Shown here piece by piece: positions 12,771 through 24,242 of a stretch of 24,242 nucleotides of DNA. Made by a program: the position numbers and the translations under genes. The stretch's first letter is position 1. Each line of letters begins with the position of its first letter. Where the stretch lies: IMG/VR virus record IMGVR_UViG_3300037010_000670, positions 1 to 24,242 of that record; one strand, 5' to 3'. The DNA is from a virus. A model generated the notes under the pieces. That model saw nothing but the letters and a program-made list of their open reading frames with translations, did not search any database and had not been told where the DNA came from.

Positions 12771-12801
12771 TCAGGCTGCGGGGAGGATGCTCGCAGCCTG
12801 A
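12771..12801 (+). terminator. strong intrinsic hairpin between capsid and tail genes
   Basis: Perfect 10-bp stem TCAGGCTGCG / CGCAGCCTGA with an 11-base loop (12781-12791), followed by TTTAATC. It sits 13 bases after the Ala-rich gene and 18 bases before the sheath start. The tail genes on the same strand would need read-through or their own promoter, so this may act as an attenuator or processing signal. Confidence 0.75.
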
Positions 12802-12818
12802 TTTAATCATCACAAAAA

Positions 12819-13991
12819 ATGGGTTTACCAAACGTAAGGATAAATTTACTGAACGGACAGCTAGGAGGCTTGATCCAGTTCGCCGAGGGTGTAGCAGGTA
12901 TCATCGGAACCGGAGTCGCAGTGAGCGGCAAGATCGGTATCAATGATCCGCGCCTCATCACCTCTCTACAGGATGCTGTCAATATCGGCATCACCCCGGT
13001 AGACAACCCTGCCGCATACCGTCAGGTTCGTGAGTTCTACGCAGAGGCTGGAGACGGCGCCGAGCTATACATCATGCTCGTGCCGGACACCATGACGCAG
13101 GCCGACATGTGGGATCGTACTAATACCAATAGCATCACCCAGCTGCTCAACTATGCGCAGGGCCGCATCAGGATCGCGGGTTCATACTTCGCGGCTCCGG
13201 GAGGCTACACGCTCGACGTGACTGCGGGTATCGACGCTGACGTATTTGATGCCATACCGAATGCACAGGCGCTCGCTGCGGACTTCGCACACAATCAGAC
13301 ACCGCTCAGGGCACTGATCGAGGGCCGCGCCTTCTCAGGTGTAGAGGCTGACCTCACCGATCTCACTACCATGACCGACAATCGTGTCGGCATCGTGACC
13401 GGAGGATCGCTGGACGATGGCTCATGCGGTGTCGGTGAGTATCTGGGACGCCTCGCAGCGATCCCCGTACAGCGCAAGGCGAGCCGCGTCAAGGACGGGC
13501 CGCTCAAGCCTGTGACCATGTATGTCGGCTCCGCTCAGGTAGACACATTCAGCGGACTCGGCGTGATGCATGACAAGGGCTATAATGTACCGCGTAAATT
13601 CCCGAATAAAGTAGGCTACTACTGGAGCGGTGACCATACCTGCGCAGCAGACACGGACGACTATCATTTCATATCCCGCGGACGGGTGATAGACAAGGCG
13701 CAGGTACTGGCTTATGTCACCTTCGTCGAGGAGCTGGACGACGAGATCACGGTCAATGCTGACGGCACCCTCTCTCAGGGACTGATCAAGACCCTGGAGG
13801 CCAAGATCGAAGGACAGATCAACGGCTCCATGACTGCAGGCGGAGAGATCAGCGCTGTCAAGTGCTTCATCAGCCCGACGCAGAATGTACTCTCTACCAA
13901 TCAGACGATGGTATCCCTGACGATCACTCCGGTGGGCTATAATGGCAACATCGTGGTCAACCTCGGATTTGACAATCCGGCATTGGCTTAA
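12819..13991 (+). CDS. tail sheath protein, DUF2586-like
   Basis: A 390-residue sheath protein of the DUF2586-type group. It starts MGLPNVRINLLNGQLGGL, with a GIIGTGVAVSGKIG strand pair, DPRLITSLQDA, RQVREFYAEAGDGAELYIML (a sheath-type beta-alpha unit), VQRKASRVKDGPLKP and a C-terminal sheath domain ending in NVLSTNQTMVSLTITPVG and GNIVVNLGFDNPALA, a final strand pair that in sheaths links subunits by handshake. It sits before the tube gene as in other myoviruses and marks the tail as contractile. Normal length; start follows ATCACAAAAA. Confidence 0.85.
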   Translation: MGLPNVRINLLNGQLGGLIQFAEGVAGIIGTGVAVSGKIGINDPRLITSLQDAVNIGITPVDNPAAYRQVREFYAEAGDGAELYIMLVPDTMTQADMWDRTNTNSITQLLNYAQGRIRIAGSYFAAPGGYTLDVTAGIDADVFDAIPNAQALAADFAHNQTPLRALIEGRAFSGVEADLTDLTTMTDNRVGIVTGGSLDDGSCGVGEYLGRLAAIPVQRKASRVKDGPLKPVTMYVGSAQVDTFSGLGVMHDKGYNVPRKFPNKVGYYWSGDHTCAADTDDYHFISRGRVIDKAQVLAYVTFVEELDDEITVNADGTLSQGLIKTLEAKIEGQINGSMTAGGEISAVKCFISPTQNVLSTNQTMVSLTITPVGYNGNIVVNLGFDNPALA

Positions 13992-14023: not shown

Positions 14024-14440
14024 ATGTTTGATAGCAAAGAATGTGAATGGAATGACCTCGAAATCTTCATCGACGGTGTCAAGCTCGGCAAGGTGCAGGG
14101 CCTCAAGTACAGCCGTACACAGGAGAAGGAGGTCATCCACGCCGCTGGCAATGAGCCACTGAGCGTCCAGCGTGGCAATGTATCCTACGAGGGTGAGATC
14201 ACCATCCTGAAAGGACTGCTCGACGATCTGAACAAAGCAGCTCGCGCATCAGGTGGTAGCGACATCCTCGACATCTCCGTCGTGGTGATCGCAAACTACC
14301 GCGCGAAAGGTGCCCGTCTGATACAGACGGACTCGCTGCTCGGCGTAGAGTTTACGAAGTATGAAAAGGGGATGGAGCAAGGTGCCAAGAGTATGCCCAT
14401 CACACTCCCTATTATCTTTCTTGGCTTAACATCCATCTAA
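14024..14440 (+). CDS. tail tube protein
   Basis: A 138-residue protein directly after the sheath gene, with the usual tube size. Beta-strands: DLEIFIDGVKLGKVQGLKYSR, SVQRGNVSYEGEITI, DILDISVVVIANYRAKGARL and PITLPIIFLG, as in P2 gpFII/Mu gpM-type tubes. It polymerises as hexameric rings inside the sheath. It ends with a TAATGA overlap: the TAA stop's last A is the first base of the chaperone start. Confidence 0.8.
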   Translation: MFDSKECEWNDLEIFIDGVKLGKVQGLKYSRTQEKEVIHAAGNEPLSVQRGNVSYEGEITILKGLLDDLNKAARASGGSDILDISVVVIANYRAKGARLIQTDSLLGVEFTKYEKGMEQGAKSMPITLPIIFLGLTSI

Positions 14441-14823
14441 TGAAAAGACACGAACAAACAACAACGGTACAGCCCACGAATGAGGATCTCGAAACAGCGA
14501 AGGCGCTCGAAGCGAAGATCGAAAAACTAAAGAAGACCCACGCTCGCCCGGATGCTACAGGCAAGAAGATACCACTCACGGAAATCTTCGTACTGAAGGT
14601 CGGTGATAAGACAGCATTCCTGCGCAAGCCTGACCGCCATGTCGCATCCCTCGCCCGTACGGTCGGACAGGGAGACTATATCAAGATACAGGAGGCAATC
14701 CTGGACGCGGTATGGCTCGAAGGTGACGAGGAGATCAGAAACGATGACGACTACTTCCTGAATGCCATTCCGTTTCTCGAAAACCTCATTCAGGTAAAAA
14801 CCGTCGAGCTAAAAAAAAGCTAG
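14440..14823 (+). CDS. tail assembly chaperone, short (G-like) form
   Basis: A 127-residue helical, charged protein between tube and tape measure, the normal position of tail assembly chaperones (lambda G, P2 E, Mu gp41). It has an N-terminal coiled-coil-like helix (AKALEAKIEKLKKTHA), a central LTEIFVLKVGDKTAFLRKPD strand and helical rest ending VKTVELKKS. It overlaps the tube stop by one base. Translation normally ends at the TAG at 14821; a predicted -1 frameshift at the A-run just before it (14811-14818) extends a fraction of the protein. Confidence 0.75.
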   Translation: MKRHEQTTTVQPTNEDLETAKALEAKIEKLKKTHARPDATGKKIPLTEIFVLKVGDKTAFLRKPDRHVASLARTVGQGDYIKIQEAILDAVWLEGDEEIRNDDDYFLNAIPFLENLIQVKTVELKKS

Positions 14824-14990
14824 ATGAATACACAGTAGCGGAGGATGACCTGCTCCGGCAGGTAGACACCATGCTCCGCTACTATTTTCACATAGACCCG
14901 GACACACTCACGGACGATCAGTATGCCATGCGATTCAACGAACTCGTATGGATACGCAAAGAGGAGGCTAAACACAACAAAGGAAACTAA
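14440..14990 (+). CDS. tail assembly chaperone, frameshifted (GT-like) form
   Basis: Predicted joined product: 126 codons in frame to 14817, a -1 slip, then 57 codons from 14817 to the TAA at 14988-14990, total 183 residues. The extension reads KLDEYTVAEDDLLRQVDTML, then RYYFHIDPDTLTDDQ and a helical end ELVWIRKEEAKHNKGN. This frame is open across the whole gap up to the tape measure start at 14994, so it otherwise would leave 170 bases unexplained. In lambda, P2 and Mu the same two-form arrangement controls tail assembly; the long form recruits the tape measure. An internal ATG at 14871 could instead start a 39-residue peptide, which is less likely. Confidence 0.8.
14811..14883 (+). promoter_or_regulatory. 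programmed -1 frameshift signal with nested hairpin
   Basis: Slippery run of eight A (14811-14818) read as A-AAA-AAA-AGC in frame. A stem follows: AGTAGCGGAG (14834-14843) is the exact reverse complement of CTCCGCTACT (14874-14883). Inside its 30-base loop ACCTGC (14848-14853) and GCAGGT (14858-14863) form a 6-bp hairpin with the UNCG-type tetraloop TCCG. The first stem starts 16 bases after the A-heptamer, somewhat further than the usual 5-9. Confidence 0.75.
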
Positions 14991-14993
14991 GCA

Positions 14994-16859
14994 ATGGGCG
15001 CAGCAGTAGAGTATTTAGTGAAAATGAAGGATGGCCTCTCCGGGCCACTCTCCAAGATCGCAGGAGGCTCTGAGGGTGCCAAAGGCGCACTGGAGAAACT
15101 GACAGGCGCTGCTGAGTCCGCTACTGATGCTACCAAGAAACTAGGCAGCAGCCTCTCCTCCCTCGACGGCCTCAAGGATGCTATGCCTGACGCCGTCAAA
15201 GGTGGTTTCGACGCGATCAAATCTGCCATACCCGAAGGAGTCGAAAGTGCCTTCGGTGGTATCGGCAAGCTGATCAAAAATCCATTCGTCATCGCAGGAG
15301 CTGGCATCATGGCATCTATCGCTATGGGCATGAAGGACTCCAAAGCCAAGATCGACTATACCGACCTCCTCGGCCTCAATACCGGGGCCAAAGTCTACGA
15401 GGACATCAAGAAGCTTCGCGTAGAACTCGGCGGCAGTGTCGTATCTGCTGCTAAGAATCTCCTCACCGCAGGAGCTGACAAGGACACCATCAGCCCGATG
15501 CTCAAGAACATCGGCGAGGTAGCCGGAGGCGGTGGCGAGAAGTTTGACGCACTCACGGAGGCATTCACCACCGTGCAGAAAGAAGGCAAGCTCACCACTG
15601 AGACGCTCAAGACCATGACGGATAATGGGTTCAAACCGCTCGCACTCATGCAGACGCTCGCAGGTTCATCGGATGAGTACTGGCAGAAGCAGCTTGCAGA
15701 TGGCGCGATCAGTATGGATGTGCTTAATAAGGCACTGGATGAGGGCGTTAAAGCAGGAGGGATATTTAACGGGACTTTGGCTAAAGCAGCGCAGACACCT
15801 ACACAGAAGTGGGTAACCATGAAGGCAGAAGTCGAAGACCTCGCCGTCACCATCGGCGCGAAGTTCATGCCGATCGTAGACGGCAGCGTCAAGGTGCTCA
15901 CCATGAGCATGGACTATTTCAATAAGGGACTGGACTACACGGTCTCTGTTTTCACCGTGCTATGCGGCTGGGCCGAAAAGAACGCCGACATACTGGAGGA
16001 GCTGACAGGCTTCGTGCTCGGTGCTGCTGCTGCCTACAAGGCATATCAGATATGGCAGGTGCTCAGCTACACATGGATGATGCGCGAGACCATCGCCACC
16101 ACGATACTGGCAGGTGCCAAGACGGTGCTCGGAGTCGTGACAGGTGCCCTCACCGTGGCTCAGTGGTCACTGAATGCAGCCTTCTACGCCTCACCTGTCG
16201 GCTGGGTCGTACTGGCTATCGGCGCACTCGTGGCAGGTGTGATCTATGCATGGAAAAACTTCGAGGGATTCCGCAAAGTGATCTACGGACTGTGGGAGAC
16301 ATTTAAAGTCGTTTTCACTGCCATTGGATCGCTGTTTAAATCCATCTTCTCGCCTATCGGTGACGCGATCGCCGCGATCAAGGAGGGCCGCTGGGCCGAT
16401 GCTGCCAAGGCAGCAGGTCAGCTCGCCCTCAATCTGAGTCCCGTGGGCATGGTAGTCCAGGGCGTGAAGGCATTCAAAGGCGCTGACATCGGCGGTGCAT
16501 ACAAGAAGGGCGAAGCCGAAGGCACTAAGAGCTGGAATAAGGATCATGAGATCAAAGTCACCAATGATACCAAGAAAGAAAAGACTCCTGAGGAGCTGCT
16601 GAAGGATAACTACAAAAACAGTAAGGTAGACTCGGCAGCTGATGACAAAAAAGACGACAAGGAAGCCGGAGCCAAAACAGAAGCAGGACTGAACGCCGTG
16701 AGCGGTGGCGGTGTCAAAAATATAACCGTGACAGTCGGCAAGATGATAGAGACTCTGGAGATCAAAATATATGGCGGCGTAGCCGAAATGCAAACGCAGA
16801 TAGAACGCGCCGTCGAGGAGGGAATGACAAGGGCTATCGCAAGCGCTACAGCTAAATAA
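14994..16859 (+). CDS. tape measure protein
   Basis: A 621-residue tape measure. The N-terminal third is Ala/Lys/Gly-rich helix (KIAGGSEGAKGALEKLTGAAES), with a tape-measure-type domain around residues 120-290 (LRVELGGSVVSAAKNLLTAG, TEAFTTVQKEGKLTTETLKTM, LMQTLAGSSDEYW). Residues about 335-440 have several membrane-like helices (LGAAAAYKAYQIWQVL, ASPVGWVVLAIGALVAGVIYAW), thought to help DNA cross the inner membrane. The Lys/Asp-rich tail ends with a short conserved module (KNITVTVGKMIETLEIKIYG). At about 1.5 angstroms per residue it predicts a tail near 90 nm. It starts 3 bases after the frameshift-frame stop. Confidence 0.85.
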   Translation: MGAAVEYLVKMKDGLSGPLSKIAGGSEGAKGALEKLTGAAESATDATKKLGSSLSSLDGLKDAMPDAVKGGFDAIKSAIPEGVESAFGGIGKLIKNPFVIAGAGIMASIAMGMKDSKAKIDYTDLLGLNTGAKVYEDIKKLRVELGGSVVSAAKNLLTAGADKDTISPMLKNIGEVAGGGGEKFDALTEAFTTVQKEGKLTTETLKTMTDNGFKPLALMQTLAGSSDEYWQKQLADGAISMDVLNKALDEGVKAGGIFNGTLAKAAQTPTQKWVTMKAEVEDLAVTIGAKFMPIVDGSVKVLTMSMDYFNKGLDYTVSVFTVLCGWAEKNADILEELTGFVLGAAAAYKAYQIWQVLSYTWMMRETIATTILAGAKTVLGVVTGALTVAQWSLNAAFYASPVGWVVLAIGALVAGVIYAWKNFEGFRKVIYGLWETFKVVFTAIGSLFKSIFSPIGDAIAAIKEGRWADAAKAAGQLALNLSPVGMVVQGVKAFKGADIGGAYKKGEAEGTKSWNKDHEIKVTNDTKKEKTPEELLKDNYKNSKVDSAADDKKDDKEAGAKTEAGLNAVSGGGVKNITVTVGKMIETLEIKIYGGVAEMQTQIERAVEEGMTRAIASATAK

Positions 16860-18142: not shown

Positions 18143-18768
18143 ACAAACCTTTTATCATATCAGCTGCTTTGAACGTGGTGCTGCTCGTGCTACTCTGCAC
18201 GAGTATTGCCGTAGGCATCAAAGTGCACCGTGCAGACTGTCCGCCTGTCACGGAGTCGACGGTCATCACGTACCGCGACTCCGTGATCGCAGTGAGGGAC
18301 ACGGCGATGAAGCCCGTTTTCAATAAGGCATCTGTCAGGATCCGTCACACAGAGGATCACAGCGCGAAGGCGATGGAGCTGGGCAGCTGCGAGACCCTGA
18401 GCGGCGCTAACTGTGCGGATACAAACTTCTACTGCGTCGACACGCTCGTCCCGAATCACTACAGGGCCGAAGCTCACGCCACCGTGACAGGCAATGAGGT
18501 CGTAGACTGGAAAGTAAACTACGTCAACCTCACACCTGAGACTATCCGCATGGAGACCGTGACCACTACCGTCGTAGAGCATCCGCGCTCGGCTATGTTT
18601 CAGGTATATGCCGGAGCCTTCGGTCTCGGCAAAGAGAACTACTGGGGCCTCGGCCTCAAGGCTGATGTCGTGATCGCTGACAGGTTTATGATCGGATATG
18701 GATTTGACGCTAAGAACCTGACGCATCAGGGCGAGCTGCTGATGAAGATCAATTTTAAAAAGAAATGA
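18139..18768 (+). CDS. membrane-anchored lysis-cassette protein, spanin-like
   Basis: A 209-residue protein: one N-terminal membrane helix (about residues 6-27, IISAALNVVLLVLLCTSIAVGI), then a Cys-containing periplasmic region (CETLSGANCADTNFYCVDTL, with at least four Cys that could form disulphides) and a C-terminal beta-rich region (FQVYAGAFGLGKENYWGLG, MIGYGFDAKN, LLMKINFKKK) with alternating hydrophobic residues as in outer-membrane strands. It overlaps endolysin and the LysM gene by ATGA. Position after endolysin suggests a spanin-type role that links inner and outer membranes. The beta-rich end is unlike classical coiled-coil i-spanins. Family not recognised. Confidence 0.55.
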   Translation: MNKPFIISAALNVVLLVLLCTSIAVGIKVHRADCPPVTESTVITYRDSVIAVRDTAMKPVFNKASVRIRHTEDHSAKAMELGSCETLSGANCADTNFYCVDTLVPNHYRAEAHATVTGNEVVDWKVNYVNLTPETIRMETVTTTVVEHPRSAMFQVYAGAFGLGKENYWGLGLKADVVIADRFMIGYGFDAKNLTHQGELLMKINFKKK

Positions 18769-22166: not shown

Positions 22167-22728
22167 TGTACTTTTTGCTTCTGGTCACCATACCATTAGC
22201 GTAGGTAAGCTCCTCAATTACGAGGCCCGAAAGGGATTCGGTGAGCTGACCATCAAAATTGAAATATCGACGGCTTGCTACTGGCATATTGGGAGTTATT
22301 TCTGATATGCCAGTAGTTGGGACGTAGAAAAGGCCCCTCACAAACGATCCTCCCTGTCCCCAACTATTAGCACCAAGAGTAAAAGGAATGGTATCAGCAC
22401 AATCCCATGTTGCTGGCATTGTAAAGCCAATATGCCTTGTAGTGTGATCTGCATTCAGCGCCATCGCATGAAAGCTCACAGTGGAAACCTTGAATAAGAT
22501 TAAATCTCCAGTATATTGACATGACTGATTATGGCCGATGTAAAGATCAATAAATAGGGTGTCTGGCGCTGAATAGGTAGTATCGACGCTAATATCTACC
22601 CACTGCTGAGACCCTAAGCTTATAGTTGTAGAGTCATTAAATGAGCTTTTAACTATCTTATAATATGGCAGCTGAGCAGATGCAGCGAGTCCTAAAAACA
22701 GCGTGAGGATAAGGAGTAAATATCTCAT
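22153..22728 (-). CDS. secreted moron-like protein, unknown function
   Basis: A 191-residue protein with a Sec signal peptide (MRYLLLILTLFLGLAASAQ, cleavage near residue 18) and beta-rich mature sequence (TISLGSQQWVDISVDTTYSA, DTLFIDLYIGHNQSCQYTGD). The C terminus RYFNFDGQLTESLSGLVIEE, then LTYANGMVTRSKKYI, recalls the end of type IX secretion C-terminal domains (Y-x-x-x-G-x-x ... G-(I/V)-Y-I-x-x-x-x-Y-x-x-G-x-x-x-x-x-K), which would send it to the surface. It is opposite in strand to all neighbours, lower in GC (about 33-48% in counted 60-base blocks), and sits at the phage end, the usual place for morons. The surface and T9SS role is inferred. Confidence 0.65.
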   Translation of the reverse strand: MRYLLLILTLFLGLAASAQLPYYKIVKSSFNDSTTISLGSQQWVDISVDTTYSAPDTLFIDLYIGHNQSCQYTGDLILFKVSTVSFHAMALNADHTTRHIGFTMPATWDCADTIPFTLGANSWGQGGSFVRGLFYVPTTGISEITPNMPVASRRYFNFDGQLTESLSGLVIEELTYANGMVTRSKKYITAQ

Positions 22729-23154: not shown

Positions 23155-24242
23155 ATGAAAAGATCATTTCTCTTAGGCTTCATAGTTCTGTCCACCATTG
23201 CATCCGTTTGCGCACAAGCAAACAGGCTTGATCCTTCATTCGCAAACAACGGTATTTTCTTAAACCGCGACTCGATCTATGCACCATGTATGCTGGTGCA
23301 GCCGGATCAGAAAATCATTTTGGCGGGTAATACAAATTTTGATTATTCACTCTTACGGCTCAATCCGGACGGGTTCATTGACAGTAGCTTTGGAGTTAAT
23401 GGCTATGTATTCGACCCCAAAGAAATTTATCCAAGGCGTACATATTGGATCCAGGCATATTCCTTAGCTCAACAATCAGATGGCCGGGTTTTGCTGGCTG
23501 GTACAGCCGGAGGTGAGGATGCTTTCGGGGGGCTTGTTCCGCTCGTGACTTGGCTTTCACGATATAACAACAACGGTACCAAAGACAGTAGTTTTGGTAC
23601 AAATGGAATTATAATAAATACTTTTGATAGCCTTTGGCCTACGAGCACCCCCAATATTCTGGTCGGACCCGGAGGTGAAATTTTCCTGACCGCCTTAGGT
23701 TCTAATTATTCATATTATTACCCATCTTGGCTTGGATCGAACAGAGTGATTTGCTATGATAGCCTAGGGCACATAGATAGTACATATGGCGTTTCGGGCA
23801 GGATATACCTATCCAAAAATCAACAGGGTAATTTACTTTCCTCCACGTTACAACCTGATCAAAAAATATTGCTGGGAGGTGCTGACACTACTGGGACAAT
23901 ATTTTCTATCTCACGATATACATCATCAGGGATTATCGACTCCTCATTCGGAAATAACGGCATAGCGCAGATCGTCTGTGATTCGGATCTAGGTGGTTTT
24001 AATTATCTATATGTACAACATGATGGCAGTATACTCGCTACGAAATATGAGCAAGCTATACCTGCATCAGATCATGCGACATTCAAACTTTCACGGTTTA
24101 CACCCTCGGGTTCGATAGACCAAAATTTTGGTCTATCAGGATGCGCCCAAACGATTATTCCTTATGGCATTCCCGAGATCGTACTGCCTATAGGAAGTGC
24201 CAGTTTCGTCGCTGAATATCCTGATGGAAAAATCTTAGTTGG
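23155..24242 (+). CDS. secreted delta-60-repeat protein, 3' end outside window
   Basis: Open without stop from ATG at 23155 to the window end (362 full codons). The first 21 residues are a Sec signal peptide (MKRSFLLGFIVLSTIASVCAQ). The mature part has repeated units of about 55-65 residues, each starting D-x-x-(F/Y)-G/A: LDPSFANNG, IDSSFGVNG, KDSSFGTNG, IDSTYGVSG, IDSSFGNNG, IDQNFGLSG, with intervening QPDQKIILAG, QSDGRVLLAG, QPDQKILLGG and PDGKILV segments. This is the delta-60 repeat (beta-propeller-like) family of secreted proteins. Such proteins in Bacteroidota often end in a type IX sorting domain, which would be beyond the window. It is probably host chromosome, since GC and layout differ from the phage. 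No function is known for this one. Confidence 0.85.
   Translation, partial: MKRSFLLGFIVLSTIASVCAQANRLDPSFANNGIFLNRDSIYAPCMLVQPDQKIILAGNTNFDYSLLRLNPDGFIDSSFGVNGYVFDPKEIYPRRTYWIQAYSLAQQSDGRVLLAGTAGGEDAFGGLVPLVTWLSRYNNNGTKDSSFGTNGIIINTFDSLWPTSTPNILVGPGGEIFLTALGSNYSYYYPSWLGSNRVICYDSLGHIDSTYGVSGRIYLSKNQQGNLLSSTLQPDQKILLGGADTTGTIFSISRYTSSGIIDSSFGNNGIAQIVCDSDLGGFNYLYVQHDGSILATKYEQAIPASDHATFKLSRFTPSGSIDQNFGLSGCAQTIIPYGIPEIVLPIGSASFVAEYPDGKILV

Follow-up and report, generated by a model that had tools for sequence, protein, structure and literature searches.

The window analysed here, a stretch of 24,242 nucleotides from an IMG/VR virus record (IMGVR_UViG_3300037010_000670), belongs to a contractile-tailed Bacteroidota phage whose tail-assembly chaperone gene very probably undergoes programmed -1 ribosomal frameshifting with the help of an RNA hairpin. 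This reading comes from the sequences of the window and of its relatives. Comparison with the relatives shows that the frame arrangement and the slip site are conserved in the family, and that the family is under selection for RNA structure just past the slip site.

Slip site and reading frames

All features of the window are given on its + strand. Gene G (14440..14823) encodes the putative 0-frame tail chaperone, 127 residues long, and ends in CTA AAA AAA AGC TAG. Because the 0 frame reads in this way, the slippery heptamer A_AAA_AAA (14811..14817), part of an A8 run (14811-14818), is phased correctly for tandem -1 slippage. The stop TAG (14821..14823) follows one codon past the slip site, with a spacing that is alike in nearly all relatives; the slip codons lie two codons upstream of the 0-frame stop in almost all loci. 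The site is of the tandem-lysine A_AAA_AAG type, represented in the window by its A_AAA_AAA form, which in E. coli is the less shifty of the two (PMC5009743).

The open stretch of the -1 frame in the window covers 14748 to 14987; its TAA at 14988-14990 leaves three bases before the start of the tape measure gene at 14994. The T extension in this frame (14817..14990, 57 codons and the TAA) is matched in the -1 frames of relatives at 45-53% identity, and translation through a -1 shift would join it to G as a 183-residue fusion. The +1 frame is closed within about one codon. The original prediction had named the A8 run with the TAG at 14821, the 57 open -1 codons before the tape measure gene and the 183-residue product, and all were confirmed in the sequence.

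Genomic context and protein identity

Matches of the neighbouring genes to PHROG and Pfam models establish the gene order as sheath, tube, G and tape measure. The tail sheath protein (12819..13991) is a DUF2586 member (PF10758, E 4.2e-56; PHROG 907, tail sheath), the tail-tube-like protein just upstream of G (14024..14440) matches PHROG 4579, a tail protein, and PHROG 9206, and the tape measure protein (14994..16859) matches PHROG 991 and others, with E values down to 1.5e-21. Lying between tail tube and tape measure, G occupies the G/GT position of tailed phages.

The only match of G itself is to PHROG 19076 (E 9.7e-22), a family whose function is not known. Searches of Pfam and of solved structures gave no confident match to G or T. 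The model Phage_TAC_16 matched two of 22 family members weakly (E 0.08), and several BFVD entries labelled "tail assembly chaperone" were matched, also weakly, at E of about 0.1. When the fold of G was searched against the PDB, the best match, 3fgx, had a probability of 0.94 yet an E value of 0.31, and the HK97 chaperone 2ob9 was matched at E 4.5. From analogy of position, we infer that the G/T family probably functions as a tail-assembly chaperone.

Conservation of the -1 shift

Relatives were sought by the G protein, by the -1-frame extension alone and by whole-genome searches. The extension was matched in the -1 frame at 212 loci prior to duplicate removal; the 165 unique loci that remain, the window and 164 others, come mostly from Bacteroidota phages and prophages. 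In 165 of 165 the extension lies in the -1 frame relative to G and in none in the +1 frame, which supports the programmed -1 frameshift proposed for the tail chaperone gene by the original prediction. The absence of +1 cases held also when only the extension served as query. Thirty-six loci were initially without a score, of which 25 are on the reverse strand and have the -1 arrangement. The -1 frame is open for no more than 22 nt upstream of the stop at 67 loci, which confines the shift to the last few codons.

The motif A_AAN occurs at the same codons as the window slip site in 152 of 165 unique loci. By class, the slip site is A_AAA_AAR in 74 loci, N_GAA_AAR in 33, A_AAA_AAY in eight and another, non-tandem N_NNA_AAN, mostly GUA_AAG, GUA_AAC or GUA_AAU, in 37; 13 loci fall outside these classes. 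At N_GUA_AAN sites, which include L057, L058, L062, L066, L070, L098, L102, L106, L114, L142, L155 and L160 among others, the P-site Val tRNA scarcely re-pairs in the -1 frame, implying slippage of one tRNA on A_AAN. Near the site, no A-run exceeds five in 82 of 165 loci (or four in 81 of these), and eight loci have a run of at least eight. Conservation in relatives had been proposed as a check on the original prediction. The -1 frame, together with the immediate 0-frame stop, proved to be kept throughout; as for the A-run, its slip position is conserved but its length is not.

A further five loci (L220-L224) have one uninterrupted reading frame for both G and T, which supports a real fusion product. 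Their genomes also carry a separate G-only gene (L213-L217) some kilobases away. Such pairs are a natural substitute for frameshifting and belong perhaps to a different contractile element.

In annotated relatives the T domain has been overlooked or given a wrong start. Annotation omits the -1-frame extension in Flavobacterium phage FPSV-S1 (L046) and in the Aureibacter plasmids pAT5 and pAT6 (L047 and L048), and in pAT5 the next annotated gene begins inside the extension. Another entry, Dulem virus 31 (L018, PP511318.1), is a 35.8-kb circular sequence with tail sheath and tape measure genes whose Microviridae taxonomy line is apparently misfiled; its gene upstream of the tape measure ends ATA AAA AAG CCA TAG, and beyond this end lies a perfect hairpin, with the -1 frame open.

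An SD-like element upstream of the heptamer in some relatives

In relatives with Lys-Glu at codons -8 and -7, the pair is written AAG GAG in 41 of 79 cases, versus 182 of 1066 for Lys-Glu in other parts of these loci (Fisher p 2e-11, without correction for relatedness). With the next codon, for Ala, it forms AAGGAGG about 7 nt upstream of the heptamer (codons -8 to -6, for example in L019-L044), positioned where a Shine-Dalgarno (SD)-type stimulator would lie. Many relatives have such an element; none is present upstream of the window heptamer, where the sequence reads GTAAAAACCGTCGAG. Ribosomes of Bacteroidia occlude the anti-SD for initiation, yet these bacteria commonly use an SD-like element in the frameshifting of prfB (PMC8710568).

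The RNA hairpin of the window

The main stem of the window (within 14834..14883) pairs 14834-14843 with 14874-14883 over 10 bp, with arms AGTAGCGGAG and CTCCGCTACT. It is apparent in the sequence, in the predicted fold, against the synonymous null and in the list of inverted repeats, where it ranks first of all those spanning up to 70 nt across the 24 kb. Past a G-G mismatch it continues as 14845-14847/14870-14872; counted as 14834-14847/14870-14883, 13 of 14 positions are complementary. Enclosed in it, by sequence and predicted fold, is a 6-bp hairpin (14848..14863, ACCTGC-TCCG-GCAGGT) with a cUCCGg tetraloop. Both elements were predicted originally, and both were found where expected. A possible weak lower helix, UGAA (14825-14828) with UUCA (14887-14890), appears in the minimum-free-energy and centroid folds and would extend the structure to 14825..14890.

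The region folds at -35.3 kcal/mol, with z -6.9 against dinucleotide shuffles. When the peptide is kept and its codons are recoded synonymously, z is -4.7 and none of 100 recodings is as stable, so that coding fails to account for the stem. Stimulatory stem-loops usually begin 5-9 nt from the slip site (PMC7618472). The distance of 16 bases from heptamer to stem, noted originally as longer than usual, holds for the strong stem but becomes 7 nt in the predicted fold if UGAA and UUCA pair. The structure may thus be one long interrupted hairpin with a cUCCGg cap, starting 7 nt after the heptamer, and the 16-nt spacer may not be real.

Searches of viral contigs, genomes, phages and plasmids for close relatives of the window stem returned only one essentially identical contig, and the folded relatives from other clades use different stem arms. 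Comparison with Rfam gave no match at a curated threshold. A terminator reading of the hairpin was rejected, there being no terminator-like site here on the + strand. Further perfect inverted repeats of 10-12 nt occur in the window at 2780-2807, 12771-12801 (directly upstream of the sheath gene), 18248-18286, 22278-22316 and 24114-24137.

RNA structure in relatives

Fold energy in the family dips just past the stop, with a mean z of -0.92 at +10 and 26% of loci below -2, versus mostly 3-12% away from the site. Compared with synonymous recoding, 22-29% of loci are below -2 in the fold windows nearest the stop and 3-10% in control regions. The outer stem, being long-range, escaped detection when just 60-85 nt past the stop were folded; in the folding of longer stretches, the bases after the stop pair with stretches mostly 30-110 nt downstream. 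The outer-stem arms of relatives include AGGCUG/CAGCCU, GAGGAGACC/GGUCUCCUC, AGUCAUCAG/CUGAUGACU, CGUUAGCG/CGCUAACG and CAGCGUAUCGGG/CCCGAUACGCUG. When the 24 nt past the stop were tested at each locus for pairing with downstream sequence, the mean z was -1.70 and 48% of loci reached p<=0.05, leaving about half without a significant stem; the corresponding figures were 7% for two control regions inside G and 12% for a test placed 24 nt further downstream. The stem of relatives starts about 5-8 nt past the slip site, in a search that began at 5.

Among 54 aligned sequences of the LRYY type, nine of 13 stem pairs show changes on both sides. Compensatory cells number 43, versus 17.1 +/- 3.3 in shuffles that take no account of relatedness, and the named stem register scores the highest covariation of all slides. 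RNAalifold returned no consensus structure on the same alignment; the LRYY-type stem is detected solely when it is named and counted, or tested per locus. Synonymous sites of this type are unusually conserved in two stretches that correspond to the two outer-stem arms, GAGGCTGCCGAGGT close behind the stop and GACCCCGACAGCCT some 95 nt further on (A6 columns 13-26 and 108-122).

Many relatives have a second hairpin inside the stem, formed by the codons for LRYYMH. Between clades the 3' arm changes register, which points to a single theme with several solutions rather than one frozen structure. The original prediction had described a two-level stimulator capped by UNCG. Nesting of this kind is frequent in the relatives and counts as a theme of the family; the cap, in contrast, looks idiosyncratic to the window, as inspection of the folded relatives by eye revealed no conserved UNCG cap.

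Alternative explanations

Polymerase stutter on the A8 run, adding one A or losing two, could produce mRNAs with G and T in one frame and would make the hairpin incidental. Some of this may take place in the window, and seven relatives likewise have runs of 8 or 9. The same gene arrangement is nevertheless kept in the 82 loci with A-runs of 5 or fewer; we regard such runs as too short for productive polymerase slippage, which makes a ribosomal mechanism the most likely one for the family. Selection for a downstream stem, which polymerase slippage would not need, also argues against stutter, and we consider it highly improbable as the explanation. That the gene is truly in one frame, with A9 misread as A8 during sequencing or assembly, is almost certainly wrong: A8 runs are error-prone, but the 551 bp are identical in another contig (L002), although it may not be independent of the window assembly, and the split arrangement is kept in the other 164 loci, of which many have short A-runs.

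The -1 frame might instead be a separate small gene, translated by reinitiation past the TAG or from an ATG at 14871, which does open a 39-codon reading frame. Yet the conserved extension begins upstream of that ATG and is continuous with the slip codons; most relatives lack an ATG at its position and have QLRYY or LIRA there. The conservation of the slip-site tetramer and the five loci in which G and T share a single frame likewise make an independent gene exceedingly improbable. A different alternative accepts the frameshift, and for that reason the probabilities we attach to these readings overlap with that of the main one. In it the slip site alone drives the shift, and the window hairpin serves RNA stability or pausing, or has no role. 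The long 16-nt spacer and the absence of the exact stem from other clades speak for it, as does the UNCG cap, since stems capped in this way are generally stabilising. We judge it unlikely: relatives hold a covarying stem directly past the stop and not at control positions, the window stem exceeds the synonymous null, and a terminator-like site is lacking on this strand.

Proposed mechanism

In the hairpin-aided ribosomal frameshift that we favour, the majority of ribosomes would halt at the TAG at 14821 and release the 127-residue G protein. A minority would slip back one base on A_AAA_AAA, with tRNA-Lys able to re-pair on AAA in the P site as well as in the A site, and continue to the 183-residue GT fusion. 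The hairpin, spanning from 14825 or 14834 to 14890, would meet the mRNA entrance of the ribosome as the slip codons are being decoded, and so increase slippage. By analogy with lambda, G would coat the tape measure protein and the T domain would recruit tube subunits. That slippage occurs, at what rate, with what help from the hairpin and in the service of which chaperone function, is what we infer from these arrangements.

Comparison with known systems

The lambda gpG/gpGT frameshift is a -1 shift at G_GGA_AAG (Xu, Hendrix and Duda 2004, reviewed in PMC5009743). The window resembles lambda G/GT in the placement of the gene between tail tube and tape measure, in a -1 shift near the end of G with the stop close after the slip site, and in a C-terminal T domain. 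It differs in its A_AAA_AAA site with a strong 3' stem, and in its distinct protein family, PHROG 19076, which has no confident sequence match to named chaperones. An A-rich tandem lysine slip site with a downstream stem-loop is shared with dnaX and IS911 (PMC5009743, PMC7618472). The IS911 structure is composite. Some relatives described here also share with these cassettes an upstream SD-like element. Unlike these two systems, the window has A_AAA_AAA rather than A_AAA_AAG and no SD element, and its product and gene are unrelated to theirs.

The two-stem stimulator of HIV-1 gag-pol (PMC7618472) is alike in layout only, with a weak lower helix formed from the spacer, an internal loop, a stable upper stem and a tetraloop; the shape of the window structure is a prediction. 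HIV-1 uses U_UUU_UUA and 80S ribosomes, and there is no shared descent. The prfB gene of Bacteroidia (PMC8710568) parallels relatives of the window, not the window itself, in recoding with an internal SD-like element under an occluded anti-SD. The prfB shift, unlike that of the window family, is +1, at a UGA stop, in a cellular gene, and serves autoregulation.

Discussion

Frameshifting in tail chaperones is textbook knowledge for lambda-like phages, but PHROG 19076 is a family to which no function has been assigned. Taken singly, -1 frameshifting in tail chaperones, stimulation by stems and by SD elements, and single-tRNA sites of the A_AAG kind are all already known (PMC5009743, PMC7618472). 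What appears new is in the detail, namely the stem stimulator of the family, the non-tandem N_GUA_AAN sites and the SD-like element of relatives, the last absent from the window. The combined signal was not found for Bacteroidota phages in the open-access papers searched, an absence that is weak evidence. The chances are about even that Bacteroidota phages have a distinct class of tail-chaperone frameshift signal, with a covarying stem after the stop whose 3' arm shifts between clades, non-tandem slip sites and, in some clades, AAGGAGG. The window would then be a variant in which a strong hairpin replaces other stimulators.

The comparative set offers a test bed of natural variants, from a strong stem with A_AAA_AAA, through single-tRNA A_AAN sites, to SD-like elements in hosts whose anti-SD is occluded. 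It bears on how spacer and stem trade off against the strength of the slip site, on whether one re-pairing tRNA is sufficient, and on whether the ribosomes of Bacteroidota use pairing between mRNA and rRNA in elongation.
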